Below, piece by piece: positions 17,446-58,552 of a DNA stretch of 64,000 nucleotides. Below the pieces are notes generated by a model that ran no database searches, was not told the origin of the DNA, and worked only from the letters and a program-made list of their open reading frames with translations. A program made the position numbers and the translations under genes. The DNA is from Bradyrhizobium sp. CIAT3101 (GTDB lineage Bacteria; Pseudomonadota; Alphaproteobacteria; Rhizobiales; Xanthobacteraceae), in NCBI RefSeq assembly GCF_029714945.1, contig NZ_CP121634.1, positions 6,903,001-6,967,000 of the forward strand. Direction: 5' to 3'. Every line of letters starts with the position of its first letter. Within the stretch, counting starts at the first letter, position 1.

Positions 17446-17521
17446 ACCGGTTTAGCTCAGTGGTAGAGCTCCGTCCCTGTATGGCAGAGGTCGGAGGCTC
17501 AATTCCTCTCAACCGGCACCA
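17446..17521 (+). tRNA. Degenerate tRNA-Thr (anticodon TGT), probable pseudo-tRNA
   Basis: A 76-nt cloverleaf with encoded CCA. The D arm (GCTC/GAGC), the T arm (GGAGG/CCTCT) and six of seven acceptor pairs are good. There is an A1:C72 mismatch, one mismatch in the anticodon stem, C instead of the universal U33 and an unusual T loop (CTCAATT). The acceptor and D arm match tRNA-Thr. The defects suggest a decaying copy, such as one left after integration, rather than an active tRNA. Confidence 0.65.
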
Positions 17522-25889: not shown

Positions 25890-26560
25890 GCAACTTTCAA
25901 GGACTGCCTGTTGGCCGAGACCATCCTCTGATCAGCGAAGCTATCGACCCGGTCAGCCCAATGCTGCATCAACTTGGCGCGCGAACCGATCAGCGCAAGT
26001 GGTCCGTGCCGTTTGTAGACTGCCTTCACCGAGTCGCTTTCAAGATGGGCTAGTTGCAACTCGATAACATCGCCATCCCACGTCTTAGTTTCCTCAAACT
26101 CCTCATGGTGGCAAAGCGTTGAAAATGTTGCGCGGAAGCCATGAGCACAATGCTCAGTCTTGGTGTCGATACCAAGTGCACGCAACCGTTGACAAAGCGT
26201 CCTAGATAATGGTGCGTCATTGGCACAAGCGAAGACGTAGCGTCGATTCCCGGTAATTTGCTGACCCGTCGCAAAATTACGATGGCTTGCCTTGATAGCG
26301 GAACGACGTGGTCCCATCCGGTTTTCATTTTCCCTGACGGAATGGTCCAGCGCTTGGAATCCCAATCAACTTCGGTCCACTCCATGTTGTTGATCATACC
26401 TGGGCGAGGAATCGTTAATGCATCCATTCTGAGGGCATCACCGACCACGTCGCCAAATCTGGCTCTCTCCCAAGGCGGCATAATCAAACTGAAAAGACGA
26501 ACTACGTCGCGCGGCTCAGTGATGCCGGGCCGTGGCGTCGAGACGTTGATGGTGAGTTGC
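25890..26560 (-). pseudogene. P4-type tyrosine integrase, C-terminal remnant
   Basis: Minus-strand remnant of a P4-family phage integrase. From 26520 to about 26240 one frame reads the central catalytic part (LIMPPWERARFGDVV, WTIPSGKMKTGWDHVVPLS). From there a different frame continues with HGFRATFSTL, the LAH box and KAVYKRHGPLALIGSRAKLMQHW, which holds the nucleophilic Tyr region. So there is a frameshift near 26240. The N-terminal two thirds of the gene are missing: at about 26540-26560 the sequence passes into an unrelated, oppositely oriented integrase. It is not functional; it marks a former island or prophage integration. Confidence 0.85.
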
Positions 26561-27504
26561 TTCTTGCAGGCGCGGAATGGCGTATCGGCGAGCGACAGAT
26601 CCGGGAAGTGACGCCCCGAGCAGCTGACAAGATCTACGACAGGATCATCAACGGGCCGAACGGTCTTAGGCTGCGACAAGGCGAAAAGGTCGTCGGGCTG
26701 TGCCGCAAGGTTTGGCGCATCATGGGCCGCCTGCACCCAGACCTGTTCGATAAGAAGCACCCGAATCCCTGGGATGATTTTACTCTCAAATCCCGGACCA
26801 AGACCAAGAAGCATGCGGTCACGCGAGAAGAGGTCTACCGGTTTGCGTGGGGTTGCATCGAGCACGGCCGGCCCGAGCCGGCCGCTGTTGCGGTTATCTG
26901 CTTTGAATGGCTGCAGCGGCCGGAGAATGTCGTGGCCGGGTTTTTGACCTGGCCAGACTACCGCAGCAAGAACTGGCCACAGGCGGTGCGGATCGAGCAC
27001 CACAAGAACAAGTCCCTGGTTTGGCATCCTCTCGAAGAAAAGCAGGATGGTGAAATCGTCAAGTTCTATGCCGAGGCAGAAGACATCTTAGGCCATCTCC
27101 CCAAGATCGGCGTTCCCATGATTTTGCGCCGGATCGAGCGCGGGGAATCTAAGGGAGCAGCAAAAGTCTGATCTTACCCTGGCATGGAAAAAGTTGTGCA
27201 GCAGATGCGCAAGAAGATCGAGGGCGTGTCCAAGCTGTTCACGCTCGATGCTTGCCGGCATGGCGGCATGACCGAATTGGAAGAAGCCGAACTAACGGAT
27301 GGTCAGGGCCGCGCGCTGTCGGGACACAAAACAGCACAAGCCTATCGAGGCTACGCCAAGGAAACGATGCAACGCGCCTTAGCGGCGACCCGCAAGCGGC
27401 ATGCGCATCTCCTGGCGCAAAAGCAAGTTGAGCACCAGGATAGCGACGTAGCTGGAGCTCAAGACCAGATCAGTGACGGCAATATCCGTCACACCGCTTC
27501 TTAA
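26557..27504 (+). pseudogene. Tyrosine recombinase remnant, truncated and frameshifted
   Basis: Plus-strand phage-type integrase lacking its N-terminus. It reads in one frame to 27171 (helical core-binding part, then VICFEWLQRPENVVAGFLTW with the first catalytic Arg), hits a stop, and resumes in another frame from about 27184 (SKLFTLDACRHGGMTELE, then LSGHKTAQAYRGYAKETM with the His and nucleophilic Tyr). A single frameshift between 27150 and 27184 explains this. It abuts the oppositely oriented P4 integrase remnant at 26557 and lies about 280 bp from a tRNA-Gln 3' end. Confidence 0.8.
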
Positions 27505-28420: not shown

Positions 28421-29510
28421 TTGGTAGAACAGCATCCACCACTGACCGACGTTTTGCTGAGAGCGGCGAAGCCGCCAGAGCGTGGCACGACCACGCTGTG
28501 GGATGGCACGCTGAAGCATTTCCGTATCCGGATCAGCAGCGGCGGCGCAAAATCCTTCATCATCCTTTTGGGCTCCGGCCGACGTCAGGCGATCGGCCGC
28601 TATCCGGCCATCAGCCTGGCGAAGGCCCGTGAGAAGGCCAAGGCGATCCTAGCCGAACGAACGCTTGGGAAGCATCGCCCAAATTCGATCTCTTGGAAGA
28701 AGGCGCTTGAGCTGTACTTGGCCGATGCGAAAACCAAGAACCGGCCGCGCACATACAACGAGTATGAACGGGCGCTGCGCCGTTACTTCCCTTTCGGCGA
28801 CACCAAGCTCGCTGACATCACCAAACAGGATATATCCGCAAAGCTTGCACGCCTCAGCGATACGCCGTCGCAGCAAAAGCACGCAGCCGTGTACCTCAAG
28901 ACGTTCTTCAATTGGGTAGTCGACCAAGAATACCTCACCGCCAATCCGCTCCAGTCATTCAAGCAAGGCAAGGCAAAGCGCCGCAAACGTGTGTTGAACG
29001 ATGATGAGGTGCGGGCCGTTTCGTTCGCCGCCGACCAGGTCGGCGACCTCTTCGGCGCAATCGTGAAGCTTGTCCTCCTCACCGGTCAACGCCGCGGCGA
29101 AATCGCGGCCCTCCTCGATACGTTCTACTCCCACAATCAGCAAACAATCACGCTGCCTGGTACGCTCACCAAGAACCACCTGGACCACACCTTCCCGGTC
29201 GGACCGATCGCGGCAGCACTGATATCAGCGCAGCTCAAGTCGGACGACCGTCGCGACAGCGCCTTTCTCTTTCCTTCGCGCACCTCGATCGAGCGCCCGT
29301 TCAACGGTTGGTCCAAGTGCAAACGCGAGTTGGATACGCTCGCGAACATCGCGCCTTGGACGCTGCATGACCTGCGCAGGACCTTCCGCAGCCGCCTCGG
29401 CCGCCTGGGCGTTCGTCCCGACATCGCCGAGCGCTTGGTCAACCACGTCTGATCTCGCAGTGATATGGAAGAGACCTACGATCTTTGGACTTACCTACCG
29501 GAAATGCGCG
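28421..29510 (+). pseudogene. Tyrosine integrase, C-terminus frameshifted
   Basis: Integrase of 343 residues to the first stop at 29452. It has an N-terminal DUF4102-like arm (LWDGTLKHFRIRISSGGAKSF, AIGRYPAISLAKAREKA), a SAM-like core-binding domain (about 85-190), and a catalytic domain with LTGQRRGEIAAL (Arg), LHDLRRTFRSRL (HxxR) and RLVNHV. The stop follows directly. In a neighbouring frame the sequence continues MEETYDLWTYLPEMRAA to about 29510, which is the normal end of this family and holds the nucleophilic Tyr. A one-base indel near 29450 therefore removes the catalytic Tyr. It sits next to the tRNA-Lys 3' half (28249-28296), its likely former target. Confidence 0.85.
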
Positions 29511-32542: not shown

Positions 32543-33694
32543 ATGAATCGGCATCTTAACCATTCGCCAGCGGTTGGCTTTCTTCTCGGCCTTCCGCGCT
32601 CCGGCACGACACTGCTGGCGTATTTGCTCCAGCGACATCCGGATATCATGTCGCCGCCTGAGCCCTGGCTGATGCTGGCACTTGAGGCATTTGGCACGGT
32701 GGACCATCGTCACCCAGCGGGAAGTTCACTGGTTGGGGCCGCTACCTCCGAGTTCTTGGACCGAATAGACCGCACTGTCGTTAGCCGAGCTCTTGCCGAT
32801 GCGGCTTACGGCCAATATTTGGCGGCCGCAGGCAAGCGCACGTTCATAGACAAGACTCCGCGCTATTGGATGGTCCTCGATTTCTTGGATTCGCTTTACC
32901 CGGAAGCGCCAAGAATTCTTATAATGCGTAATCCGTACGCTATCGCCGCATCACTGAAGTCAACGTGGGGCATTCCGCTCCTGTCCGCAGGTTGCCCGTC
33001 CGCCATCGCATCTTGTCTTACCGATCTGGCGCGGGACTTGCCTACGCCTGCTGTCGTATCTAGCCTCGCCGATCTCGTTCTAGGCCTGCCGACGCTCGCT
33101 GCGTTACGTGGCCGCCGCCAGACGCAAGTGGTGCAGTACGAACTCCTGGTGGTGCGCCCCGACGAGGAAACCCGGCGCGTCATCGCAGGATTAGGCTACG
33201 ATCCCGCAGACTTGACATCGGCCACAATGGAGCAAACCGATCAGTTCCGGTCCAGTACCTTTGGGGACCGAAAGATCCTGGAGAAAAAGACAATCGATGA
33301 TCGCTCTCTCCAAGCTTGGCGAACCGAATTGAGCATCGAAGAGATGCAGGTGGTGACCAATCTGGTCGGCACCGAGCTCTTGATAGAGCTCGGTTATGAG
33401 CAGGAACTTCGATATGCACAGCAAGTCGGGATCGTCGATCGGGGTCCGGCAGTAACCGAGGCGTATCGTCAATTGTTTCGAACCTGCTGGGATCTGCGCG
33501 TCGGTACGTCAAGCGCGTCGTTCGGCGTCTCCACTCACGCGCGCGAGCGCAACGGCATTGTTAGGCAAGCTGGAGAGAGCTCCTTAGCTTCCGAGGCGCA
33601 ACGTTTAGCTGAGAAGACGGAGGAGAATTTGCGGCTGATGAGTTCCATGGCAGCGCAGTTGGAGCAGGCGTTGACGGCTTCGAAAGCCGATTGA
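32543..33694 (+). CDS. Sulfotransferase with C-terminal coiled coil
   Basis: A 383-residue PAPS-dependent sulfotransferase. The 5'-phosphosulfate loop is GFLLGLPRSGTTLLAYLLQR (residues about 11-30) and the 3'-phosphate motif is ILIMRNPYAIAAS (about 128-140). A conserved FIDKTPRYW strand lies between. The last 40 residues (SSLASEAQRLAEKTEENLRL and on) form a coiled coil, unusual for a simple sulfotransferase. After the stop, coil-like but out-of-frame sequence continues to about 33800, so the protein may once have been longer. The acceptor is unknown: glycolipid, polysaccharide, Nod factor or peptide are all possible. It is cytoplasmic, with no signal. It is followed after 160 bp by an FAD/NAD(P)-binding protein on the same strand. 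Confidence 0.88.
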   Translation: MNRHLNHSPAVGFLLGLPRSGTTLLAYLLQRHPDIMSPPEPWLMLALEAFGTVDHRHPAGSSLVGAATSEFLDRIDRTVVSRALADAAYGQYLAAAGKRTFIDKTPRYWMVLDFLDSLYPEAPRILIMRNPYAIAASLKSTWGIPLLSAGCPSAIASCLTDLARDLPTPAVVSSLADLVLGLPTLAALRGRRQTQVVQYELLVVRPDEETRRVIAGLGYDPADLTSATMEQTDQFRSSTFGDRKILEKKTIDDRSLQAWRTELSIEEMQVVTNLVGTELLIELGYEQELRYAQQVGIVDRGPAVTEAYRQLFRTCWDLRVGTSSASFGVSTHARERNGIVRQAGESSLASEAQRLAEKTEENLRLMSSMAAQLEQALTASKAD

Positions 33695-38801: not shown

Positions 38802-39148
38802 GCAAGTCCTTTCGGTAAAGAGACCGCCGGGATTGGCGATCTCGTTGCCGTTCGGACGCGCGAGGCGGAAACGAGCGAAGCGGTCAAGACCGTAATGGGA
38901 GGCGCCGCGCACTCCTGCCGGAGACCATCCAACGTGCCATCATGGCGCCCGCCGCCCGTGCACAAGCCTATCTACGCAGCGGCTGAAGACCTCCTGCATG
39001 TCCCGTGCTGGGCAGGCAATTAAAGGGCCGATTGACAGGTTATCCGCGGGGACGTATCGGCAGCAGAACAACTTATCTTCAGCTAACGCACGCGCAAGAC
39101 TTTCCTGATAATGGCTCACACCTAAGCCCCCAAAGATTGACGGCTTGC
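38802..39148. other. Intergenic, nothing recognised
   Basis: About 350 bp downstream of the copper monooxygenase operon. No gene and no convincing terminator hairpin seen. Confidence 0.4.
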
Positions 39149-39661
39149 TCATTTTGTTTCCTTCACAACCAGGTTGAGGGTCTGTACCGTCTCGGAGATT
39201 GTGTGATGCTGCGGATCCGCCCAATAGAGTCTTATTGTGTGCCGACCAGGCTTGGCAGGGAGATCGAAAACATAGAGATAGCGGCCATCACCAAGCTGGA
39301 TCAGCTGGTCTGCCATTGGCATGAGCTCGGTTTCGTCCATCGCAACATGCAGATGAACGCTGGGATTGGCAGAGCTCATGGTCATTTCTGCGATGTTATC
39401 GTCGGCTTGGAAAACGAAAGCAACACGCTCGCCGATGGTATTACCCGATTGCGGCAGGAGGATCTTCAACGCGGGCAGCTCGCCGGTATTTCCCGATTTT
39501 GCAACAGGCGCACCGTAAGACCCGTGCATATGGTGCATGCCCGGCTCATGGTGTTGTGCGTGGGCTGGAGCCGCGACCAGAGCGCCAGCCACAAGAATCA
39601 TGCACCCAATGAACTGTTCGAATCGATCGCCAAACCGGTTGGGACGGGATGATATTTGCAT
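39149..39661 (-). CDS. Exported His-rich protein, last gene of CuMMO operon
   Basis: A 170-residue protein with AGGAGG before ATG 39661. An N-terminal signal peptide ends at PAHAQ, and the mature protein would open HHEPGMHHMHG, a His/Met-rich stretch suited to binding copper. The rest is a beta-sandwich-like domain with SVHLHVAMDETE and PGRHTIRLYWADPQHH; it resembles DUF6130-type proteins (HLHV-D ... PG-HT--L-LAD--H). It is probably periplasmic. It lies 42 bp after the CopD fusion and closes the operon. I infer a role in copper delivery or storage for the monooxygenase; this is not shown. Confidence 0.7.
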   Translation of the reverse strand: MQISSRPNRFGDRFEQFIGCMILVAGALVAAPAHAQHHEPGMHHMHGSYGAPVAKSGNTGELPALKILLPQSGNTIGERVAFVFQADDNIAEMTMSSANPSVHLHVAMDETELMPMADQLIQLGDGRYLYVFDLPAKPGRHTIRLYWADPQHHTISETVQTLNLVVKETK

Positions 39662-39703
39662 GCTTTCCTCCTTTGTTTGCGAGCCTGAAAGATTTCCACT
39701 AAT

Positions 39704-41695
39704 TCAGTGCACGTGTTGAGCGGGTGGCGGGAGAATTTTGGACTCTCTATTGAGAACTCGGACCTGCGAGATCAGCTCGTCGGAATTTTGCCAACCACAT
39801 TCGTCCTCCTCTTGCAACCAGCGCGCACGGATGTATCCGAACCTGTCGATTAGGAATTCCATGGAACGTCTTCCCATTTCCAAACGCTTGGGATCTCCAC
39901 GATTTGTTGTGCTCCGGGAGAGCAGATCGTAACTTTCTCTAACCTCTTGTGCTCCATGCCGGACATTCGGGACGCCCGCCGCCAGCTTTGCGTCCGGCGA
40001 CACGATAATCGCCCACAATCGTTCTTTCCGGAATCTTTTCTGCTCAAGGCGCAGCTGTTTAACGCGCATTGCGTCGGACTTTTCGGGAAACACGAGCAGC
40101 ACATTGCTTTCCTCACGGAAGTCCTTCAGCTCCCTCTCCGCCCCATTCTCGTCCTCTAAGAAAAAGTTTGGAGCCCCCAGCCACGGATGATCGGGTACGA
40201 TTTCAGGCGACAGGAGGCGCGCCTGAAATCCCTCTGAAAACGTCCGCAGGAAGTTGATCACATCCCAGCGGGCCTGTTCGGCCAATACATCAGCAAATCC
40301 GGGCATGCCGCTTTTTGGAATTCCATGGCTAAGCCACCAAAACATGTCGCCGGCCGTGTGCAGCGCAGTATGCGGTTCGCTCAAATTCGCGGGCGGCTTG
40401 GGAAGGGTCGATGCCGCCGGACCATCGCCAAGCCCTCCGCTGCCGTGGCAAGCCGCACAATTCTGGGCAAATAGACGCTTTCCATTGGTTATTGATATCG
40501 TCGAATAGGCAACCGACGGGCGGCGGTAAGTATCGGGATAGGCTTGCACTGATATCTGCCACAGACCGCCAGCGACCAAAATAACGGCGGCGGCGCCTGC
40601 TGCAACTGCTTTTACCTTTTGCGGCTTTCTCAAACAAACGAGCAGGCCCCAGAAGAGTGACAATAGTGCTAGTGAGAAGGCGCCCCCCGCGATAACGGGC
40701 GTCGGCCACGCCGGCCACGTGGCTTCGATCGAAAAGCGAAACGGCAGCCACCAGATGGGCTGATCATGTCGTGCTGGTATGACTGAAGAGAGCGCGGCTG
40801 CGCAGCCGACGATCAGAACACCGCAAAAGAATTCAGTTGCTGCCCATCCAGCTCCTGCAAGAAAAGCCGCGGGTTTTGCTCCTACGGTTTCCATGACGGG
40901 TAGGAAGCGCGTGCGAATCCGATTGGCCACCAACAGGATGCATGCAAGTAGAGCAAGCTTCGTTATAATTAGTTGACCGTAGGTCGTGCCAAGCCACTCG
41001 CCAGCCGAACTAGCGGAGCTAAACGCGAGCACCAAACCTGATGCGACGACGACGACCACGAAACCGATTGCTAGTTGGGAGAAACGTCGCAGCGTCGCTG
41101 CGACATAGACGCGCCGAGTCTCCGTGGGGGTGACAGCGACCGAAGCCACCAGCCAGATCCAAGCCGGTAAGGCCCCAAGCCAAGCAGAAACCGCGAGCAC
41201 GTGAAGTTGATAGGTCGGAACGAGCCAACGGCTGTCGTCTTCCCCGGCGGCGTGTCCAGCAAGTGGACCAATCAGCGCGATCAGTGCTGCTGTCCCGGCT
41301 GTCACGATTGAAGCTAAACGTTGCTGCTCCCTCGACCAGCCGCGAATTAGGATCGCTGTCGGCAGCAGCAAAAGAAGAGAGAGCGCTAACCTTGCAAGCG
41401 TGATCCGACCGTGATGTGTGTCAAATCCGAAGCTTTCCAGCGTCTGGCCAGACGCTACTATCTCCGGTAGTGCCATATCTGTCGCAATCGCGACTTGAGC
41501 GATAAATAACCCAGCGGTAGCGAAGAGGTGAATGCCGGCCGCCCAGTGAAAGCTCACCTGCGCTCGTCTTTGCCAAGTGGCAAGGAACGGATCGGAAGAC
41601 GGCGCTGCCAGCAACAGAAAGAGTACTCCGCCTATGACCCATGCAAGCGCAATGTCAGCGATGGCCTTGCACAGAGCTGGAAACAATACCGTCAT
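39704..41695 (-). CDS. CopD-cytochrome c-thioredoxin-like fusion protein
   Basis: A 663-residue three-part protein. Residues 1 to about 375 form a CopD-type copper-transport membrane domain with many hydrophobic segments (starts VLFPALCKAIADIALAWVIG; includes AGHAAGEDDSRWLVPTYQLH). Residues about 395-490 form a class I cytochrome c with CAACH (Cys413, Cys416, His417) and an axial-Met candidate in KSGMPGF. Residues about 500-650 form a thioredoxin/DUF4174-like domain (ELKDFREESNVLLVFPEKSD; IVSPDAKLAAGVP) without a CxxC. The C-terminal domains should face the periplasm. A single protein joining copper import, electron transfer and a thioredoxin fold is unusual; CopD proteins usually lack the last two parts. 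It lies 10 bp after copC and is co-transcribed with pmoCAB. The proposed role is copper supply and/or electron delivery to the monooxygenase. Confidence 0.85.
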   Translation of the reverse strand: MTVLFPALCKAIADIALAWVIGGVLFLLLAAPSSDPFLATWQRRAQVSFHWAAGIHLFATAGLFIAQVAIATDMALPEIVASGQTLESFGFDTHHGRITLARLALSLLLLLPTAILIRGWSREQQRLASIVTAGTAALIALIGPLAGHAAGEDDSRWLVPTYQLHVLAVSAWLGALPAWIWLVASVAVTPTETRRVYVAATLRRFSQLAIGFVVVVVASGLVLAFSSASSAGEWLGTTYGQLIITKLALLACILLVANRIRTRFLPVMETVGAKPAAFLAGAGWAATEFFCGVLIVGCAAALSSVIPARHDQPIWWLPFRFSIEATWPAWPTPVIAGGAFSLALLSLFWGLLVCLRKPQKVKAVAAGAAAVILVAGGLWQISVQAYPDTYRRPSVAYSTISITNGKRLFAQNCAACHGSGGLGDGPAASTLPKPPANLSEPHTALHTAGDMFWWLSHGIPKSGMPGFADVLAEQARWDVINFLRTFSEGFQARLLSPEIVPDHPWLGAPNFFLEDENGAERELKDFREESNVLLVFPEKSDAMRVKQLRLEQKRFRKERLWAIIVSPDAKLAAGVPNVRHGAQEVRESYDLLSRSTTNRGDPKRLEMGRRSMEFLIDRFGYIRARWLQEEDECGWQNSDELISQVRVLNRESKILPPPAQHVH

Positions 41696-41704
41696 TCCGC
41701 ATGC

Positions 41705-42307
41705 CTAACGTTCCTCGACGGTGAACTGATAGCCGTAGTCCACCACATGCCCGTCTTGCGAGAGCACGCGGTAATGAACCGAATAGCTGCCCGGTCTCAT
41801 GTCAGATACTGCCGTTACCATGCACTTCGGATCATTGCCTGCTTTCAAATCGCCGAGCGTTAGCGACTGACCGTTGGCGTTCTTGAGCTCCACTTTCGAA
41901 AACTTGAGCTCTATGCGTTCGTTGAAGCATAGTTCGATCTGCTGCGGCGAATGAGCTAACACTGCCCGGCTCGCGGGATCGGACTTCACGAGAGCGGCAT
42001 GTGCAGAGGCAGCCGTCGGCAGGCACACTAGGCCAACGCACAGCAACGTGATGCCAAGCGCTGATACCGGACGCCTGCTTGCGGACGAGAGTTCTTTTAC
42101 CGTCCCTTGAATCAGCCTAGTTCGCGCCCTGCCGGTGCCGGCGGTCAAGTTTGGCGTGCCAGCATGATCGAGTGACGGCCCCGTCGCTACTCGGATGTAA
42201 TCGATCTTGTTTCCGTGTTTTTCGTGAGACATGAGTGTGACCCTTATTGCCGGACAGCGGCCGACAAAGTAATAGCCTAGCTTTCCTTGAGCAACGTGGA
42301 GTACCAA
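41705..42307 (-). CDS. copC: CopC-domain periplasmic copper protein
   Basis: The C-terminal 120 residues are a CopC domain: AHAALVKSDPASRAVLAHSP, ELCFNERIELKFSKVELKNA and RPGSYSVHYRVLSQDGHVVD. The first residue after signal cleavage would be His (SAHAAL), the copper(II) ligand of CopC, and the DGH near the end supplies further ligands. A signal-peptide core (LGITLLCVGLVCLPTAASA) precedes it. The frame is open to ATG 42307, overlapping the upstream gene by 31 bp, but this would place about 75 residues before the signal. The true start may be ATG 42232 (AAGGGT upstream) or later. CopC next to CopD is the standard copper-acquisition pair, here tied to a copper monooxygenase. Confidence 0.85.
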   Translation of the reverse strand: MVLHVAQGKLGYYFVGRCPAIRVTLMSHEKHGNKIDYIRVATGPSLDHAGTPNLTAGTGRARTRLIQGTVKELSSASRRPVSALGITLLCVGLVCLPTAASAHAALVKSDPASRAVLAHSPQQIELCFNERIELKFSKVELKNANGQSLTLGDLKAGNDPKCMVTAVSDMRPGSYSVHYRVLSQDGHVVDYGYQFTVEER

Positions 42308-42843
42308 AACAGGGCGGCCCCGGCTGCCAGCGTTCCTAGAACGATTGCGAAACTGTCCCTATATCGGACCCAAATCCCGTTGCCGTAACCAACCGAAAAC
42401 GGAAATCTCGATACGTATTTCTGTCCGTCGCCGACTGTCACGAGGCCCACAAAGCGCCCGGATTCGGGGAACGTGTACTGAAACGATAGTGAGCCTGTCG
42501 GATATTGTTTTGGCGGGATTCGAAGGACGGCCTCGCTGTCTACGTCGTTGCCGGCGTCTCGCAACAACCGCACCTCGATGGGCAGATCACGTAGCACATC
42601 GCCGACGGCATCCAATACGATGACCGTGCGGCCGACTTCCGGAATGTCCTCGCAAAATTCCTGATTCCCCTGCTTGGCCGGCTGGTATCCGGTAAAATGC
42701 ATCATATAGGGCCCAGCGCGAAGCTTGCACACGTCTTTCTCCATCGATACTCCCCCGTGTGCAATCGCTGGCCGCGCCCCACCGCAGTCTAGGATGAGGA
42801 GCAAAGATGGAATTCCAAGCACTGCGGCTTTTACGATGTTCAA
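42277..42843 (-). CDS. Membrane-anchored periplasmic protein of CuMMO operon
   Basis: A 188-residue protein with a TTG start at 42843 that shares bases with the pmoB stop (TTGA), with GGAGG 6 nt upstream: tight translational coupling. An N-terminal signal (AVLGIPSLLLILDCGGARPA) is followed by a beta-rich domain with two Cys (VCKLRAG, FCEDIPEVG) and PIEVRLLRD, and a C-terminal membrane helix (SFAIVLGTLAAGAALFWY). The layout is that of a periplasmic immunoglobulin-like domain anchored at its C-terminus. It is not PmoD by any motif I know. Its position between pmoB and copC suggests an accessory or assembly factor. Confidence 0.7.
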   Translation of the reverse strand: MNIVKAAVLGIPSLLLILDCGGARPAIAHGGVSMEKDVCKLRAGPYMMHFTGYQPAKQGNQEFCEDIPEVGRTVIVLDAVGDVLRDLPIEVRLLRDAGNDVDSEAVLRIPPKQYPTGSLSFQYTFPESGRFVGLVTVGDGQKYVSRFPFSVGYGNGIWVRYRDSFAIVLGTLAAGAALFWYSTLLKES

Positions 42844-44162
42844 CCCGGACCTCCTTTCGGATTCTCAGCCGTGCGGTTGTCGGGATCGGTGAATACAGGG
42901 ACCATGGGGCCGCTGACGTTTGAGATTGTCCGTTTGCCGTGCTCGTCATAGAAGAACAACAGTCCTCCCAACGTGTTGTCCGGATCGTTGATCAGGCTAC
43001 TCAAGCGCTCCGTCTCCCATGCCGCGTCGGCCGCTTCGATATCGACTGTCTTCGTTTCACCCGGCTTGAGCGGTCGGCTGTCGCTCACCTTAAGCCCATT
43101 CGGAGGAAGCAATTCCTTGGGGTAATTCGGATCCACCGTCGCCATTGCCTGGCTAACCTCATGGTTGATGAAGCGCTGATTGGAAGTTAAGAACTCGCCA
43201 AGCTGTGCTGACGTGCTCCCATTGTTCGTCAGTGTCACATTCATACGAAGCGAGCGGCCAGGGACGTCATAGTTTGACTTGTTGACCACAACTTTGACCT
43301 GCTCAGGCACTTCCGATAGGGGCTCGACGGTTGCGCGGGACCCCTGCAGCGGCACGGTCCTTGGATAAGCGGTGTCGGTCGCCTGAAAGCCGAAGAATAC
43401 GATGAGAATCGTCGCCACGAGCAAACCGGCCCCAAATAGGCGATCGGTGCTGGTAACGAGCTGAGATTGATCGCCGCCTTTTTCCGTCAACGCGCGAAAA
43501 CGAGGCAGCAGCAGCGGCCGGCGCAACCACCAGACAAGCCACACGATGGCGATCGCAACCCACAAGCCATGCCAGAAGAACACCCTGCCAAGGCCCCAGG
43601 TTTCGAGATTGTCGATAGTCTCGCCACTGAGAGTTTTGATTGGAAGCTTGAAGTCGCTTTCGTTCCCCGTCACCGTCAGCCAGTTTCCCGGTCCGAGCAG
43701 CGGCCCGGCTCCCATCACGTTGATCATCGGATGGACGTGATGGTGGCCTGGCACTCGTCCTTTGAGCACTGTTTTGAATTCATAGTCCCGGTTCAGCTCC
43801 AATTTGGTGGACTGAATTGCTGGGACGCCATTAATGTAGCTCTCGGTTCGGGCTAGCACCGGGCCCGGCGTCCCGTTTCCCAGAAAGGCCGCTTCGGGAA
43901 GGGGTAGATTGACTGGCCAGATCGGGAAGAGTCGGAACTTGCCGGTGACAACGATTTCACCGTTCACGGGAATTTCGTTCGTGCTCCACTTCACATCGTA
44001 AAAATGAGCCGTTCGCATCCGCAGAAACGGCTCTTGATTGCGCTCACCATGCGCCAGAGCAGCATCTGGGACGAAGGTCAGTATTCCGATCGGCATGATC
44101 GCCGCCGCTGCCGATAAGATTACACGCACGCATGAGCTTTTGCGGAAACAGAATGTTCTCAT
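42840..44162 (-). CDS. pmoB: Copper membrane monooxygenase subunit B (PmoB/AmoB family)
   Basis: A 440-residue subunit B. GGAGGA lies 6 nt before ATG 44162. The signal peptide is followed by AHGERNQEPFLRMRTAHFYD. His38, the first residue of the mature protein, is the expected CuB ligand, and VPGHHHVHPMINVMGAGPLL supplies the HxH pair (His142, His144), as His33/137/139 do in Methylococcus PmoB. The two cupredoxin-like periplasmic domains flank two membrane helices (RVFFWHGLWVAIAIVWLVWW; LFGAGLLVATILIVFFGF). The second cupredoxin ends about residue 425 and the tail is Pro/Gly-rich. All elements of a functional subunit are present. Substrate specificity cannot be read from it. Confidence 0.95.
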   Translation of the reverse strand: MRTFCFRKSSCVRVILSAAAAIMPIGILTFVPDAALAHGERNQEPFLRMRTAHFYDVKWSTNEIPVNGEIVVTGKFRLFPIWPVNLPLPEAAFLGNGTPGPVLARTESYINGVPAIQSTKLELNRDYEFKTVLKGRVPGHHHVHPMINVMGAGPLLGPGNWLTVTGNESDFKLPIKTLSGETIDNLETWGLGRVFFWHGLWVAIAIVWLVWWLRRPLLLPRFRALTEKGGDQSQLVTSTDRLFGAGLLVATILIVFFGFQATDTAYPRTVPLQGSRATVEPLSEVPEQVKVVVNKSNYDVPGRSLRMNVTLTNNGSTSAQLGEFLTSNQRFINHEVSQAMATVDPNYPKELLPPNGLKVSDSRPLKPGETKTVDIEAADAAWETERLSSLINDPDNTLGGLLFFYDEHGKRTISNVSGPMVPVFTDPDNRTAENPKGGPG

Positions 44163-44189
44163 TTGGAGTCCTCCACAGTCCCAGCAGGA

Positions 44190-45047
44190 TCATTCGGCTG
44201 CGACGAAGCGCCCTTGCAGGCTAGTGCCGTCTATGGCTTTTTGGGCTGTCTCAGCTGGCTCATCCTTATCCGTGAGCCCCATGAAATTTTTCAGGGTGTT
44301 TGGCGTCGTTACCACACGAGCGAGGAGCATTCCGATATGCCACCACGCCAAATACATCAGTATGGATACGAACGCCGAGAAAAAGGACGCGATAATGGCT
44401 GAGTGGCCACCAAAAGTTCGAAGCGTGCCCCGCTCTATCAGCCGGATATACTCAGGCAGGGCGGTGCGGGTGAAGGCATAGCTGATGTAATCGCCCACGG
44501 AAACAAGCTGCCCCATCACTTCTACGGGTAGCCGATATGGCGCCAGCCAAAACCAGTTAGCCGGGTAGAAAAGCAGTGCGAATGCAAAGGCGCCGGACAT
44601 CGCCGTGAACAAAAAATTCCCGGTCAGCAAAAGAGCGACATCGAGGACTAGTGCGCCAGGTATCAGCAGCGCTGGAATGACCTCGCTCATCGGAAAGTAC
44701 GACCACAGGTGGAAACCGAAATATCGATTTATCCACTGACCGAACAGGAGACAAACGACCGCAAATGTAGCGGCGATTGGAAGTCTAAATTTCGTCCAAA
44801 ACACATACTGCAAAGCTGCAGGGAATGTTATGGCCATAATTGGAGTCAGGGTGACCCACCACTGTCTGTCTTTCCAATCGATCCACATATCCCAGTCCCC
44901 TGCGGTCAGCATGTAATGCAGGTGGAATGCGCCGGAGACGGCCAGAAAAAGGATGGCGGCGACGAGAAGGTCAAACACTCTTGAGATTCCTGCTGACTCT
45001 TTAGGCCATTCGAGCCCATACAGTCTCACAGACGTTCCTCCTTGCAT
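44190..45047 (-). CDS. pmoA: Copper membrane monooxygenase subunit A (PmoA/AmoA family)
   Basis: A 285-residue integral membrane subunit. The signature segment is TAGDWDMWIDWKDRQWWVTL, followed by INRYFGFHLWSYFPMSEVIP and LRTFGGHSAIIASFFSAFVS, all typical of PmoA/AmoA. Most relatives have GDWDFW; here it is GDWDMW. Two nested starts are possible: ATG 45047 (AGGAGG 5 nt upstream) and GTG 45029 (AAGGAGG 7 nt upstream), so the product may be 285 or 279 residues. The last 35 residues (TPNTLKNFMGLTDKDEPAET and on) form a polar extension beyond the usual PmoA end. It lies between pmoC and pmoB in the standard CAB order. Confidence 0.95.
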   Translation of the reverse strand: MQGGTSVRLYGLEWPKESAGISRVFDLLVAAILFLAVSGAFHLHYMLTAGDWDMWIDWKDRQWWVTLTPIMAITFPAALQYVFWTKFRLPIAATFAVVCLLFGQWINRYFGFHLWSYFPMSEVIPALLIPGALVLDVALLLTGNFLFTAMSGAFAFALLFYPANWFWLAPYRLPVEVMGQLVSVGDYISYAFTRTALPEYIRLIERGTLRTFGGHSAIIASFFSAFVSILMYLAWWHIGMLLARVVTTPNTLKNFMGLTDKDEPAETAQKAIDGTSLQGRFVAAE

Positions 45048-45119
45048 GGCTTCCTCCTAATTCTCTTACCGAGTTGAGATCGACCTTCCTGGAAACCGAC
45101 GCCCGACATGATTACAAGA

Positions 45120-45140
45120 CGGCATGCTTTGCACATGCCG
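45120..45140 (-). promoter_or_regulatory. Stem-loop between pmoC and pmoA
   Basis: A perfect 7-bp stem, CGGCATG (45120-45126) and CATGCCG (45134-45140), with a 7-nt loop in the 125-bp pmoC-pmoA gap. It is not followed by a T run on the transcribed strand. It may be a processing or partial attenuation structure allowing different amounts of C and A/B message. Confidence 0.5.
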
Positions 45141-45172
45141 GGCTGTCAGCGATAAATGGTTCATAAGCGGTT

Positions 45173-45964
45173 TCAGCGCTGGGTAGCGACCGAAACTTCG
45201 TCCTCTTGGGAAAGCCGCCCGATCACTTCAAGCATGTGCATCGCGATCTGGATCAGGAGCCCACCCAAGGCCAGCACACTCCAGCCCATCACGACAAAAC
45301 CCCAGTGCAAGGGATAGGAGAACACCTCTTCCATCAGGAAGAAGGCATGGCCCCACTCGTTGTAGCCCAAGTTCGGCAATATTAGAAACGGACCTACAAC
45401 CACGAGCACGAATGGAATTGAGATCTGCGTTGCGAACTTCGGCAGCCTCGTCATCGCGTACAGAAATGATCCCACGCCAAACAGCACGTAAAGTGGCATG
45501 GTGCCGTAGAACAGCACGATGTGACTCGGCGTGAAGCTTGTATCCCGGACCACAACCTGATGCCATGAGGCGTCCTGCTCGGCAAAGAAGCTGGTAGCGA
45601 ACCAGACGCAAAAGGCATAGACGAAGATGAACAGGACCAGATTGAAGTAACGCCGGAGCTCTTCCCGCGGTTTGAGCGCGCCAAGATTGCGGTCTCGCGT
45701 AAACCATAGATACGCCCAGGTCACCACCCAGAGCAAAGGGATGACGCTAAGCTCAACCTTCAGCAACGTCATCCAGGCGGCATCGAACGCGGGCTCAGTC
45801 GAATCCAGGCCGGCACTCCAAGCATAGACCTGCTGAAAGATGCGCCAGAACACCATCAGCGCTAACACTGCCAGAGTGACTCCTGCTGCAAGTTTGAAAT
45901 TCGCCAACGGCTGAGTACGGTCCTCAGCGGCGGACTTGGCGTTATGAGTCATCGTGATCGACAT
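45173..45964 (-). CDS. pmoC: Copper membrane monooxygenase subunit C (PmoC/AmoC family)
   Basis: A 263-residue integral membrane subunit with AGGAGGAGAG directly before ATG 45964. The metal site of PmoC is fully conserved: Asp131, His135 and His148 in AEQDASWHQVVVRDTSFTPSH, equivalent to Asp156, His160 and His173 of Methylococcus PmoC. Further family marks are SAGLDSTEPAFDAAWMTLLK and LPNLGYNEWGHAFFLMEEVF. About six membrane segments are visible. It is the first of the structural genes, and a PqqA-like micro-gene lies 92 bp upstream. Together with A and B it should form a trimeric inner-membrane enzyme oxidising a small apolar substrate or ammonia. Confidence 0.96.
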   Translation of the reverse strand: MSITMTHNAKSAAEDRTQPLANFKLAAGVTLAVLALMVFWRIFQQVYAWSAGLDSTEPAFDAAWMTLLKVELSVIPLLWVVTWAYLWFTRDRNLGALKPREELRRYFNLVLFIFVYAFCVWFATSFFAEQDASWHQVVVRDTSFTPSHIVLFYGTMPLYVLFGVGSFLYAMTRLPKFATQISIPFVLVVVGPFLILPNLGYNEWGHAFFLMEEVFSYPLHWGFVVMGWSVLALGGLLIQIAMHMLEVIGRLSQEDEVSVATQR

Positions 45965-46056
45965 CTTCTCTCCTCCTTGGAGATTGCCTCAGGTGTGGTG
46001 TTGTTTACGAGGGAAGTTCTCACTCCGATCGTTGATCGCAAGGATAGGATCTGTCT

Positions 46057-46161
46057 TCAAGCTCCCAGCGTTCTGGTTACCTCTTTGCGAACGGCGCACG
46101 CATACATGTTGATTTCGAGATCGACCGGCAATTCGACGATTTTTGGGGCTTTCCAGCTCAT
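46057..46161 (-). CDS. pqqA: PqqA-like coenzyme PQQ precursor peptide
   Basis: A 34-residue peptide starting MSWKAPKIVELPVDLEINMY at ATG 46161, with AGGAG 9 nt upstream. It matches PqqA: an initial xWxxPxIVExxVxxE, and the essential Glu16 and Tyr20 in EINMY (ExxxY) that are cross-linked to make pyrroloquinoline quinone. After YACAVRK it carries eight extra residues (EVTRTLGA) compared with most PqqA. No pqqBCDE genes are in the window, so maturation would rely on enzymes elsewhere. The location directly upstream of pmoC suggests that PQQ supply (for a methanol or alcohol dehydrogenase acting on the product) is co-regulated with the monooxygenase. It is short, so the call rests on the motif. 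Confidence 0.78.
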   Translation of the reverse strand: MSWKAPKIVELPVDLEINMYACAVRKEVTRTLGA

Positions 46162-46202
46162 ATCGGTTTGCTCCTGGCTAGATGAATGCGGCGCAAAAAG
46201 TC

Positions 46203-46223
46203 GCGAGGACACGAGGTCCTCGC
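46203..46223 (-). promoter_or_regulatory. Stem-loop upstream of pqqA-like gene
   Basis: A perfect 8-bp stem (46203-46210 with 46216-46223) with a 5-nt loop, about 40 nt before the pqqA-like start. On the minus strand it is followed by GACTTTTTGCG, so a partial terminator or attenuator in the operon leader is possible. Confidence 0.5.
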
Positions 46224-46312
46224 AGTGGGGGAGAACTCACCGAGTGCGCTGCAAGTGCTCGGCGAAAAAGAAACCCATAATCACGCCATCCCTGCCACCG
46301 CGCGCTGTGCCA

Positions 46313-46456
46313 TCACCCTGATGAGATTGGCGCGATAATCCGACGATCCGCAGGAATATGATCCGACTCTTGCCTCGCCCGCTGCTGCTCTTGCAAAGCA
46401 GCGTATTGATGCATCCAAGCGTCCATATTGAACCATTCGTTATAGTTGGACTCCAC
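46313..46456 (-). CDS. 47-residue leader ORF upstream of CuMMO operon
   Basis: Small ORF with a GTG start at 46456 and AGGGAG 7 nt upstream. The peptide opens MESNYNEWFNMDAWMHQYAA, then LQEQQRARQESDHIPADRR: a Trp/Tyr-rich helix followed by a charged helix. No family is recognised. It is on the same strand as the operon, 150 bp before the pqqA-like gene, with a hairpin in between, so it could be a leader peptide or a small accessory protein. Confidence 0.45.
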   Translation of the reverse strand: MESNYNEWFNMDAWMHQYAALQEQQRARQESDHIPADRRIIAPISSG

Positions 46457-46814
46457 ATCACTCTCCCTAGATGAGGTAAATCTTCATAGCTGACCCGGAG
46501 CTAAGCCGTTCACTCAGGTCGACGACCGCAACAAAGCCAAAGAAACACAGTCCTCCCCCTTCTCTCTGTTCGCTCATTACCCGCACCCTCCCTTTGAAAG
46601 AGCGGTGCGGCGCGTCGGGTTTGAACCTGGCCCGTATAGACGCAAGACGTCCGCTTTCATCTCAAACAACCCGTCCTGCTCCGGCTTCAATTTGGAAATT
46701 AATCCGCGCGTTCGGTCTCAGGTTACAACCTCACGCCACGTACGAATCAAGCCTCGCCATGACCGGCGCCAGAAAGAGCTTGAGGCCTGCGTGGGGTCAG
46801 GTTGTACAACCGGC
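46457..46814. other. Probable promoter region of CuMMO operon, otherwise empty
   Basis: About 360 bp. The part nearest 46457-46600 should contain the operon promoter. No gene-like frame, IS or clear operator seen. Confidence 0.4.
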
Positions 46815-56083: not shown

Positions 56084-58552
56084 ATGGATCCGTTCAACAA
56101 CGTCAACCCATTCGAGGCCTCGGACGTAGAGCGGACGCATGACGACAGGCTGCTGACGCAGCAGGCGGACGCCGGGTTTCAGCAGCACCTGAACGAGTTG
56201 CATCCGCACGAGCGCCAATCCTCCAATTCAAATAGCCTCGGCCAGCCCCATGTTGTGTCGCACAGAGATGCAGAGCAGTTGAGTATGCCGCGCGAGGATC
56301 GCGTCGGACAAAGCACCTCGTGGTCGCCATCGGATCCGCCCTCTGAACAATGGGGTAATCAGAATGTGCGTTTTGCGGCCGCGGATCACGGTCGCCAGTT
56401 GCCGGGCAGTTTCAGCCTGACAGATTGCTGGCAGGGCATGGATGCAGCTGCCGATTGGCCGACGCATAGTGTCGATCAGGAGGAGCATTCGTGGGCTGAG
56501 GCCGATGATGTGGTGTCGGAGTGGCCAACGTCCCCCGCAATTCCTTGGGAGCACAGCCTCGAGGCATCGACCCTCGGCCGACAGCCCCGGCCGGGCGATG
56601 GCAATACTTCAAGAGGAGGCCACTGGCTCCCCCTCCCGCCGGCCCCGGCGCAGTGGACCGACGGCTTGCACGGCACAGGCGCCTCCACATCTAGCTATTC
56701 TAGCAATCTGACGAACCTTGAAGACCCCGTCCTCAGGGAAGCGCAGCTTGAGCAGATCCTGGACAGTTGGGCTGGCGAACCGGGGCAGACGGAAAACGAG
56801 GACCGGCACGAGGCCGCAAGACGAATAAGAGCCTGGGCAGAAGCCGGAGACGTCTATGCACGGCTGGAGCTGCCACGCCTGGGCCTGACGACATTGCCCG
56901 CCGCCTTTCCGGCCGGACTCCAGTCTCTTGACGTGAGCGACAACGACTTGGTGCACCTGCCCGACACGCTCCCGGCCGGACTCCGGACGCTCGGCGCCAG
57001 CGGCAACCGGTTGACCAGCCTGCCCGACATCCTTCCGATCGGACTCCAGTCACTGTTAATCGGCGACAATCTGCTGACCAGACTGCCCGCAACTCTTCCG
57101 GAGAACCTTTCGACGCTTGCTGTCGTCAACTGCCGGCTGACTAGCCTGCCGGACGCACTGCCGACGGGGCTCCAGGACCTCGATGTCCGCGGCAACCTGC
57201 TGACCAGCCTGCCCAACACACTCCCAACCGGACTTCAGACACTTGCCGTTGGCGGCAACCGGCTGACCAGCCTACCCGAGAGTCTGCCGCCCGACCTCCA
57301 GGAGCTCGAAGCCGACGGCAACCGGCTGACCAGCCTGCCCAACGCCCTTCCCGCCGAGCTCCCGTTGCTCTTCGCCCGCGACAACGACTTGACCAGCCTG
57401 CCCGACACCCTCCCGCCTGAGCTTCAGAGACTCCATGTTGGCGGCAACAGGCTGACGAGCTTGCCTGAGACCCTCCCGGCCGAGCTCCAGGTGCTCGAGG
57501 TACGAGGCAACCGGCTGACCAGCCTGCCGGAGACGCTGCTGACCCAGCTGGGTTCTGGGTGCATCGTGTATGTAGAGGATAATCCGCTATCCGAGCGGGT
57601 GCGGACTAATTTGGCGGCAGCCCTGAATGCCCCGGGCTATAGCGGTCCGCGAGTGTTCTTCTCGATGAGTGAGGGAACGGCGGGCGATTCAGCGCGACCC
57701 CTGAGCCACGCGGTAGCGAACTGGATGGAGGGCGAGCCGGAGGTGATCGCTGCATGGCAGAACTTCGCCGGCGAAGCGGGCGCGTCGGAATATGCGCTTT
57801 TCCTCGACAGGCTGCGTAGCACCGTGAATAGCGGCAATCCGGAGTTTAGAAAAGCGGTAGCCGATGATCTGCGGCGAGCAGCGATCAGGCCGGGGTTGCG
57901 CCAACAGTATTTCCAGCTGGCGTTTGGGGCGAGCGAGACCTGCGAAGATCGCATCACCCTGTCCTGGAACGGCATGCAGACAGCACGCCTGAACGCTGAC
58001 GTCGAGGAGGGGGCCTATGACAACCGTCTCGGCGAGCTCGTCGACCAGGCGCGGGTCCTGTTCCGCCTGGGCGCGCTCGAGCCCATCGCTCGTCAGAAAG
58101 TCGGTTCGCTCCAATTCGTCGACGAGATCGAGGTCTATCTTGCCTATCAGGTCAAGCTACGCGAGCGGCTGGACCTGCAGCTCATCGCTCCGGACATGCG
58201 GTTCTTTGATGTCTCCTACGTCACTGAGCACGACCTCACCGCGGCCGAGACCAAGGTTCGGAATGAGGAGGCGGCAGGATTCGCCGATTATCTGGCAACC
58301 CGCTGGCAACCTTGGGAGACGGTGGTGAGCCGGATCGCCCCCGAAGCCCACGCACAGATGCAGGACCGGTTGATCGGGGCGATGGACGGGGAGTTCCAGA
58401 GTCGGCTCGAGCAACGGCTCGCCGATCATGACCTGACCGGAGACAGCGATGCCGAGTTGCAGTTCGGAGCAAAGATCCGCGACGAGATCGCCTGCGAGAT
58501 CAAAGGCGCGCTGATGCGCGAGGTGCTCAGGGACCACGGCCTTGAGCTGTGA
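56084..58552 (+). CDS. NEL-type E3 ubiquitin ligase effector (NopM/IpaH family)
   Basis: An 822-residue type III effector. AGGAG lies 6 nt before ATG 56084, and the tts box ends 55 bp upstream. The N-terminus (1-220) is polar and Gln/Ser/Asp-rich, a secretion and translocation region longer than in typical NopM. Ten leucine-rich repeats of 21 residues follow (about 276-486; pattern LQxLxVxGNxLTSLPxxLP). The C-terminal NEL domain (about 520-815) has the catalytic Cys620 in SETCEDRITLSWN, with the acid-base residues CEDR expected for this ligase class, and GAYDNRLGELVDQARVLFRL. It should be injected into plant cells and ubiquitinate host proteins through a Cys-linked intermediate. The LRR part would bind the target and inhibit the ligase. 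It is related to NopM of Sinorhizobium and several Bradyrhizobium paralogues; which one cannot be said. An IS5-type element starts 44 bp after the stop. Confidence 0.95.
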   Translation: MDPFNNVNPFEASDVERTHDDRLLTQQADAGFQQHLNELHPHERQSSNSNSLGQPHVVSHRDAEQLSMPREDRVGQSTSWSPSDPPSEQWGNQNVRFAAADHGRQLPGSFSLTDCWQGMDAAADWPTHSVDQEEHSWAEADDVVSEWPTSPAIPWEHSLEASTLGRQPRPGDGNTSRGGHWLPLPPAPAQWTDGLHGTGASTSSYSSNLTNLEDPVLREAQLEQILDSWAGEPGQTENEDRHEAARRIRAWAEAGDVYARLELPRLGLTTLPAAFPAGLQSLDVSDNDLVHLPDTLPAGLRTLGASGNRLTSLPDILPIGLQSLLIGDNLLTRLPATLPENLSTLAVVNCRLTSLPDALPTGLQDLDVRGNLLTSLPNTLPTGLQTLAVGGNRLTSLPESLPPDLQELEADGNRLTSLPNALPAELPLLFARDNDLTSLPDTLPPELQRLHVGGNRLTSLPETLPAELQVLEVRGNRLTSLPETLLTQLGSGCIVYVEDNPLSERVRTNLAAALNAPGYSGPRVFFSMSEGTAGDSARPLSHAVANWMEGEPEVIAAWQNFAGEAGASEYALFLDRLRSTVNSGNPEFRKAVADDLRRAAIRPGLRQQYFQLAFGASETCEDRITLSWNGMQTARLNADVEEGAYDNRLGELVDQARVLFRLGALEPIARQKVGSLQFVDEIEVYLAYQVKLRERLDLQLIAPDMRFFDVSYVTEHDLTAAETKVRNEEAAGFADYLATRWQPWETVVSRIAPEAHAQMQDRLIGAMDGEFQSRLEQRLADHDLTGDSDAELQFGAKIRDEIACEIKGALMREVLRDHGLEL
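56911..57541 (+). repeat. Ten 63-bp tandem repeats encoding LRRs
   Basis: The leucine-rich repeat part is also a DNA-level tandem array: units of 63 bp sharing GGCAACCGGCTGACCAGC and a CTGCCC...CTCCC stretch. Similarity between units is high enough for slippage or recombination to change the repeat number between strains. Confidence 0.8.

Follow-up and report, generated by a model that had tools for sequence, protein, structure and literature searches.

Among described copper membrane monooxygenases (CuMMOs), those of marine gammaproteobacteria that use ethane or ethylene (Haliea ETY-M, ET-SHO, ET-HIRO and the marine 'particulate hydrocarbon monooxygenase', pHMO) are among the nearest known counterparts of the operon described here. 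In Bradyrhizobium itself, a CuMMO 'of unknown function' was named in strain ERR11 in 2018, and the available part of that source states that such sequences were deliberately not detailed (PMC6215863); the presence of CuMMOs in the genus is therefore not new. The ERR11 enzyme shares its genus with ours, but the likeness is known from the description, with no lineage assigned. We analyzed a 64,000-nucleotide stretch of Bradyrhizobium sp. CIAT3101 (the window; G000:C1:6903001-6967000, part of a complete 9.37 Mb genome), which carries a complete CuMMO operon. PmoA of the window is 49–54% identical to the marine ethane/ethylene enzymes, whose hosts are marine, and falls in the same starred branch of the PmoA tree. 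On balance, we favor a functional CuMMO of the hydrocarbon type, apparently maintained and mobile, the substrate of which would most likely be C2–C4 hydrocarbons. A sequence-only reading of the window had anticipated new physiology for a nodule bacterium; this did not stand for the presence of the enzyme, named earlier in ERR11, whereas a hydrocarbon assignment was not found in print. The literature, covered partially and with few subscription journals, contained no report of a hydrocarbon role, of several lineages in the genus or of a nodulation link for Bradyrhizobium CuMMOs. No Bradyrhizobium CuMMO is reported in the available parts of PMC11931723, PMC4036023, PMC6189053, PMC11507031, PMC9213486, PMC9038741, PMC8630023, PMC12533140, PMC6843303 and PMC4041235.

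The operon runs on the minus strand from 46161, the ATG of pqqA, to 39149, the end of orf170, behind which the start of an acyl-CoA synthetase gene is cut off. In transcriptional order, the features are as follows.

46057..46161, minus strand: pqqA, precursor peptide of pyrroloquinoline quinone (PQQ), 34 codons, with E16xxxY20 (TIGR02107, 33.3 bits, cut-off 20; PF08042, 24.6 bits, cut-off 21.1)
45173..45964, minus strand: pmoC/hmoC, CuMMO subunit C (PF04896, E 4.2e-94; NF041641 and TIGR03078 above cut-off; PDB matches)
44190..45047, minus strand: pmoA/hmoA, CuMMO subunit A (PF02461, 8.4e-94; NF041557 above and TIGR03080 below cut-off; trees)
42840..44162, minus strand: pmoB/hmoB, CuMMO subunit B (PF04744, 8.4e-142; NF041640 and TIGR03079 above cut-off; alignment to PmoB of particulate methane monooxygenase, pMMO, 3rgb)
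42277..42843, minus strand: pmoD/amoD-like periplasmic copper protein, 188 aa, TTG start (PmoD structure 6cpd, E 2.2e-19)
41705..42307, minus strand: copC, start codon uncertain and maybe further in (PF04234; NF033814 below cut-off)
39704..41695, minus strand: copD fused to a cytochrome c domain (PF05425 and PF00034; NF033808 below cut-off)
39149..39661, minus strand: orf170, His/Met-rich secreted protein, 170 aa, conserved in four lineage-1 loci
39078..39152, minus strand: remnant of an acetyl/propionyl-CoA synthetase gene, its initial 25 codons (PF16177 for the longer piece of locus L023; TIGR02316 partial)
39079..46754, no strand: DNA block common to other Bradyrhizobium at 97–98%, with shorter versions spanning 39079-46087

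All seven larger genes are intact in the window, which bore out the earlier claim of a complete pmoCAB and copC/copD operon in gene integrity, strand and Pfam families. Intergenic gaps are at most 42 bases, with overlaps, from pmoA on, and measure 92 bases between pqqA and pmoC and 125 between pmoC and pmoA. A good ribosome site had been claimed for each gene; this held for pmoC, the sole gene inspected, which is preceded by a strong AAGGAGG. The 188-aa protein had no Pfam match and possesses two invariant cysteines, a Met/His ligand motif and a periplasmic domain, as in PmoD/AmoD; the motif is compatible with both Cx7MxH...C and Cx8MH...C, as defined in the available part of PMC6189053. The identity of orf170 was 94–96% in four lineage-1 loci and 41–42% in L040 and L112. 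No Pfam family reached its cut-off for orf170 (DUF4399, 19.4 of 28 bits), and its predicted structure was a beta-sandwich (mean pLDDT 66) that matched generic immunoglobulin-like sandwiches only, with no specific fold; its role is probably copper handling. Promoter and terminator scans gave chance-level matches only, and repeat and tRNA searches returned nothing bearing on the operon.

Alignment revealed that the metal ligands proposed from the sequence alone (PmoC Asp131, His135 and His148; PmoB His38, His142 and His144) are all present, and PmoC N202, H206 and H220 could be added. The six PmoC residues were identical in all 42 aligned PmoC sequences, and the three PmoB histidines, which we take to be the Cu_B site (the PmoC site names being likewise assumed), were conserved in 39 of 42 PmoB sequences, the exceptions being two Verrucomicrobia and genome G250 (locus L021). 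Both sets were retained in 8/8 lineage-1 rows. With C, A and B subunits in one operon and intact ligands, the operon is, as judged from sequence, that of a genuine CuMMO. In the lineage-2 PmoB of G250 (L021/L112), L and Q replace H38 and H144, although this copy keeps all PmoC ligands and is flanked by pathway genes; Cu_B is likewise absent from the two Verrucomicrobia rows.

A PF02461 profile search of 265 Bradyrhizobium genomes detected CuMMOs in 21, which score and identity divided into three groups. Lineage 1 comprises 10 genomes including that of the window, PmoA of the other nine being 96–99% identical; its occurrence in 10 genomes is far beyond chance. Lineage 2, also of 10 genomes, has PmoA 43–46% identical to the window's, and eight of these were included in the PmoA tree. 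The third group is G156 (55%), the PmoA of which equals that of a Bradyrhizobium metagenome-assembled genome (MAG; L040) over the tree columns used. Because the G156 contig matches both L040 and a Sulfotelmatobacter MAG from one site (L041), its host is uncertain; the CuMMO contigs of L040 and L041 are closely similar, and one binning is probably wrong. Among the best 80 of 323 places kept from a scan of species genomes, from which the window's own genome may have been left out, PmoA identity above 70% was confined to seven Bradyrhizobium (98–99%). The nearest proteins outside the genus lie on short contigs and are at best 70 and 74% identical. Five plasmid records matched PmoA, all below 60% identity, and a plasmid origin was rejected. 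The B. niftali copy is already annotated as 'methane/ammonia monooxygenase subunit A' in the protein bank.

In the PmoA tree (82 rows, in which three pMMO structures stand for pMMO), lineage 1 lies inside the starred branch of 64 rows with support of 95/89. This branch includes Haliea ETY-M (substrate ethylene), ET-HIRO and ET-SHO (ethane), Cycloclasticus, marine pHMO and lineage 2, and leaves outside the three pMMO structures, betaproteobacterial ammonia monooxygenase (AMO) with Pxm, Verrucomicrobia and Actinobacteria. The tree of concatenated PmoC, PmoA and PmoB (42 rows, containing neither cultured C2 users nor pMMO of gamma- or alphaproteobacteria) showed a similar arrangement with support of 99/98, and an approximately unbiased (AU) test on these data rejected the grouping of lineage 1 and its near relatives with AMO (p 0.0098). 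In both trees, some branches were flagged as long. Since lineages 1 and 2 are separate in the trees, the genus acquired CuMMOs at least twice. For the substrate, previously proposed as a class only, the trees and the gene context point to hydrocarbons over methane or ammonia.

If the enzyme were instead a methane monooxygenase, methanol would be passed to the strain's own PQQ dehydrogenases of the methanol/ethanol type. The host encodes dehydrogenases of this family, PmoB has a pMMO (3rgb) as its best solved-structure match, and CuMMOs co-oxidize similar substrates according to the available part of PMC6215863. PmoA, the only subunit for which this comparison holds, nevertheless falls outside the branch of the three pMMO structures, and Haliea, among the nearest cultured relatives, shows no methane degradation in the available part of PMC4036023. 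The available part of PMC11931723 describes as non-methanotrophic four Bradyrhizobium isolates from desert, which may or may not carry the operon. We regard a methane monooxygenase as unlikely.

For a hydrocarbon-type enzyme, PmoCAB would hydroxylate a short hydrocarbon, most likely C2–C4, at the PmoC copper site, with PmoD, CopC, CopD and orf170 presumably loading copper or passing electrons. Periplasmic PQQ alcohol dehydrogenases encoded elsewhere in the chromosome would oxidize the alcohol, and the aldehyde and acid would then enter metabolism as acyl-CoA. PQQ supply is supported by the location of pqqA inside the block. The host genome has pqqE and three PQQ alcohol dehydrogenases above cut-off, and of the DNA matches to the operon pqqA, one (79%) lies ~0.9 kb from a host PQQ alcohol dehydrogenase and another ~2 kb from pqqE. 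By pattern, pqqA was recovered in 6/10 lineage-1 genome loci and 4/7 named loci. The start of the acyl-CoA synthetase remnant shares 73% identity with the host copy; its break point differs between strains, with no match past ~74 residues. Acyl-CoA synthetase-like genes also occur near the CuMMOs of L043 and L044. In lineage 2, genes for an aldehyde dehydrogenase and a PQQ alcohol dehydrogenase immediately precede pmoC in G250 (L112). In G028 (L110), the ~7 kb downstream of the pmoD-like gene encode a LuxR-type regulator, a double rubredoxin and a protein of the FA_desaturase family that resembles AlkB by eye and has no NCBIfam match. Neither genome has nodC above cut-off. In another lineage-2 locus, L109 (G263), a cystathionine gamma-synthase family gene (5992-7275; NF005455 above cut-off, methionine gamma-lyase below) lies ~1.2 kb upstream of pmoC, and sulfur volatiles are conceivable as a substrate source there.

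Comparison of the copies indicates that the operon moved between species. A block of 7.0–7.7 kb is 97–98% identical at the DNA level among the window, L022–L028 (to contig ends), G196 and G211, in different contexts, whereas two core regions, one near pqqE and one near a PQQ alcohol dehydrogenase, show 88–90% identity between the window genome and G196 or G211. Block flanks mostly differ; L023 shares its flank with G211 and, in part, with L027, and short pieces are shared in L025, L028 and L106. G198, of the same species as the window genome, lacks the operon. The surroundings are accessory, with insertion sequence (IS) elements, integrases and the following effector gene.

56084..58552, plus strand: LRR-NEL type effector gene (PF14496)

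Of the earlier proposals, mobile transfer and the accessory surroundings were upheld, but the remnants of an integrative conjugative element were not. The block does not fit such an element, since its variable ends resemble truncations and it has no integrase, and a mobile element with fixed ends was ruled out because the ends of the block vary from strain to strain. Integrase-family genes lie ~9.6 and 12 kb from the shared block. In the same window, a tRNA-Thr (17447-17517) and two integrase-family genes (26050-27027 and 28421-29452, one below Pfam cut-off) possibly mark the edge of an older island, and the accessory region also contains a single-module type I polyketide synthase (4876-11337; 2153 aa, thioesterase included).

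Alternatively, the genes could be a decaying passenger of mobile DNA, carried with no present benefit. The acyl-CoA synthetase is broken in all eight copies reading beyond orf170 (window, L022, L023, L025, L027, L028, L106 and L107), pqqA is cut in L025, L028 and L106 and stopped in L027, pmoA of G196 has a one-base gap near the gene end, the same-species G198 does without the operon, and neither a sigma-54 nor a FixK site was found at the operon. Against decay, the seven larger genes are intact in the window, the ligands are retained in all lineage-1 rows, and dN/dS was 0.23–0.48 (eight genes, 9 or 10 copies, pooled pairs, at low divergence and with some copies maybe from one strain). Selection therefore appears to keep the operon genes, and a passenger is an improbable explanation.

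The operon may also be linked to symbiosis. With relatedness ignored in the Fisher tests, nodC was above cut-off in 10/10 lineage-1 genomes compared with 125/255 others (p 0.0017), in 7/10 lineage-2 genomes (p 0.34), and in 17/21 genomes with a CuMMO compared with 118/244 without (p 0.005). One nodulation gene lies in the window, 5.5 kb from the operon.

32543..33694, plus strand: noeE, nodulation sulfotransferase (NF052394, 695.8 bits, cut-off 500)

The distance from noeE to pmoA is ~56 kb in G211 and ~110 kb in G196, and nodC lies ~178 and ~151 kb from pmoA in these genomes, respectively, but 1.45 Mb away in the window genome, where nifH and hrcV are 1.4 and 1.8 Mb from the operon. With noeE near and nodC, nifH and hrcV distant, the operon lies in symbiosis-type DNA that is not always the main island. 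The window genome has three noeE-type sulfotransferase genes above cut-off (window 32543-33694; G000:C1:6970291-6971448 and 8679431-8680588). Nodule control by sigma-54/NifA or FixK was rejected: no site was present at the operon, and matches in the window were at chance level. The block would have spread among nodulating Bradyrhizobium, apparently along with symbiosis regions. Given nearly identical copies in other nodule-forming species, the oxidation of a gas could be a trait that moves among some rhizobia. Ethylene is a plant hormone that restrains nodulation. As a symbiosis trait, a C2-type CuMMO could oxidize a plant-made gas, above all ethylene, and so remove the hormone signal at its source rather than via its precursor. 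The relatives, including the ethylene-grower Haliea, nodC in every lineage-1 genome and the proximity of noeE point in this direction, although we consider this specific role doubtful.

Several observations weigh against the hydrocarbon-type assignment or its proposed pathway. As to the pathway, pqqA was cut, stopped or not found in 7/17 lineage-1 loci (some maybe the same strain); G198 has the host PQQ genes without the block, which makes these genes independent of it; and alcohol dehydrogenase, aldehyde dehydrogenase and AlkB-like genes were not found in the 20 kb around the copies in the window, G196 and G211 (L106–L108), nor in L109 (G263) or L111 (G221). As to the placement, a second Cycloclasticus PmoA (P0120) falls outside the 64-row branch, and with PmoA alone the AU test did not reject a grouping of lineage 1, P0002 and P0003 with AMO as opposed to eight hydrocarbon rows (p 0.34). 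In addition, the bacterial AmoA/B/C models of NCBIfam score above cut-off for these proteins, the best solved-structure match of both PmoA and PmoC is an AMO (organisms of the pMMO and AMO entries presumably being those we assign to them), and the order CAB-D-copC-copD is that of the Nitrosomonas amo operon. An AMO or ammonia co-oxidizer is nonetheless very improbable, since the PmoCAB test rejected a grouping of lineage 1 and its near relatives with AMO, AMO forms a separate branch, PmoB positions 53/77 are H/R in 8/8 lineage-1 rows versus Q/H in 6/6 AMO, and the hydroxylamine oxidoreductase family (PF13447) was found in 0/10 lineage-1 genomes and in 2/2 Nitrosomonas controls. In the phylogeny suggested as a check, the PmoA tree set the operon with C2 oxidizers and apart from the pMMO structures and AMO, the PmoCAB tree was similarly arranged, and the PmoA-only AU test did not exclude AMO; we regard the hydrocarbon-branch placement as good but not final.

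To our knowledge, small-hydrocarbon oxidation is not among the traits usually ascribed to rhizobia. If the operon is active, some nodule bacteria would be able to use small gaseous hydrocarbons as an energy source or to remove them, soil sinks for C2–C4 gases would be wider, some unassigned soil pmoA/amoA-like sequences might be accounted for, and a symbiont would have a testable route to alter a gaseous plant hormone. Since the AmoA/B/C models score above cut-off, these rhizobia may be recorded as ammonia oxidizers in genome surveys that depend on such models.

Comparison with the remaining known systems revealed partial likeness in each case. Actinobacterial hydrocarbon monooxygenases (HMO; Mycolicibacterium NBB4, Rhodococcus WAY2) have CAB followed by an AMP-binding synthetase downstream, comparable to the broken acyl-CoA synthetase of the window; their PmoA is 39–40% identical and distant in the tree, and pmoD, copC and copD are unannotated in the stretches compared. 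The Cycloclasticus loci of the hydrocarbon branch, unlike the window operon, have no copC or copD match within the stretches compared. Rochman reportedly described, in 2020, the CuMMO of alkane-utilizing Betaproteobacteria. The closest named-genome relatives outside the genus are uncultured beta- and gammaproteobacterial MAGs (L029–L039), with PmoA 61–66% identical; two of these contigs, L033 and L038, come from MAGs titled Klebsiella pneumoniae, which suggests a mistake in naming or binning. These loci differ from the window in having no orf170 match and a CopD only 34–37% identical, but most contigs that are long enough carry pmoD-, copC- and copD-like genes nearby, as in the window.

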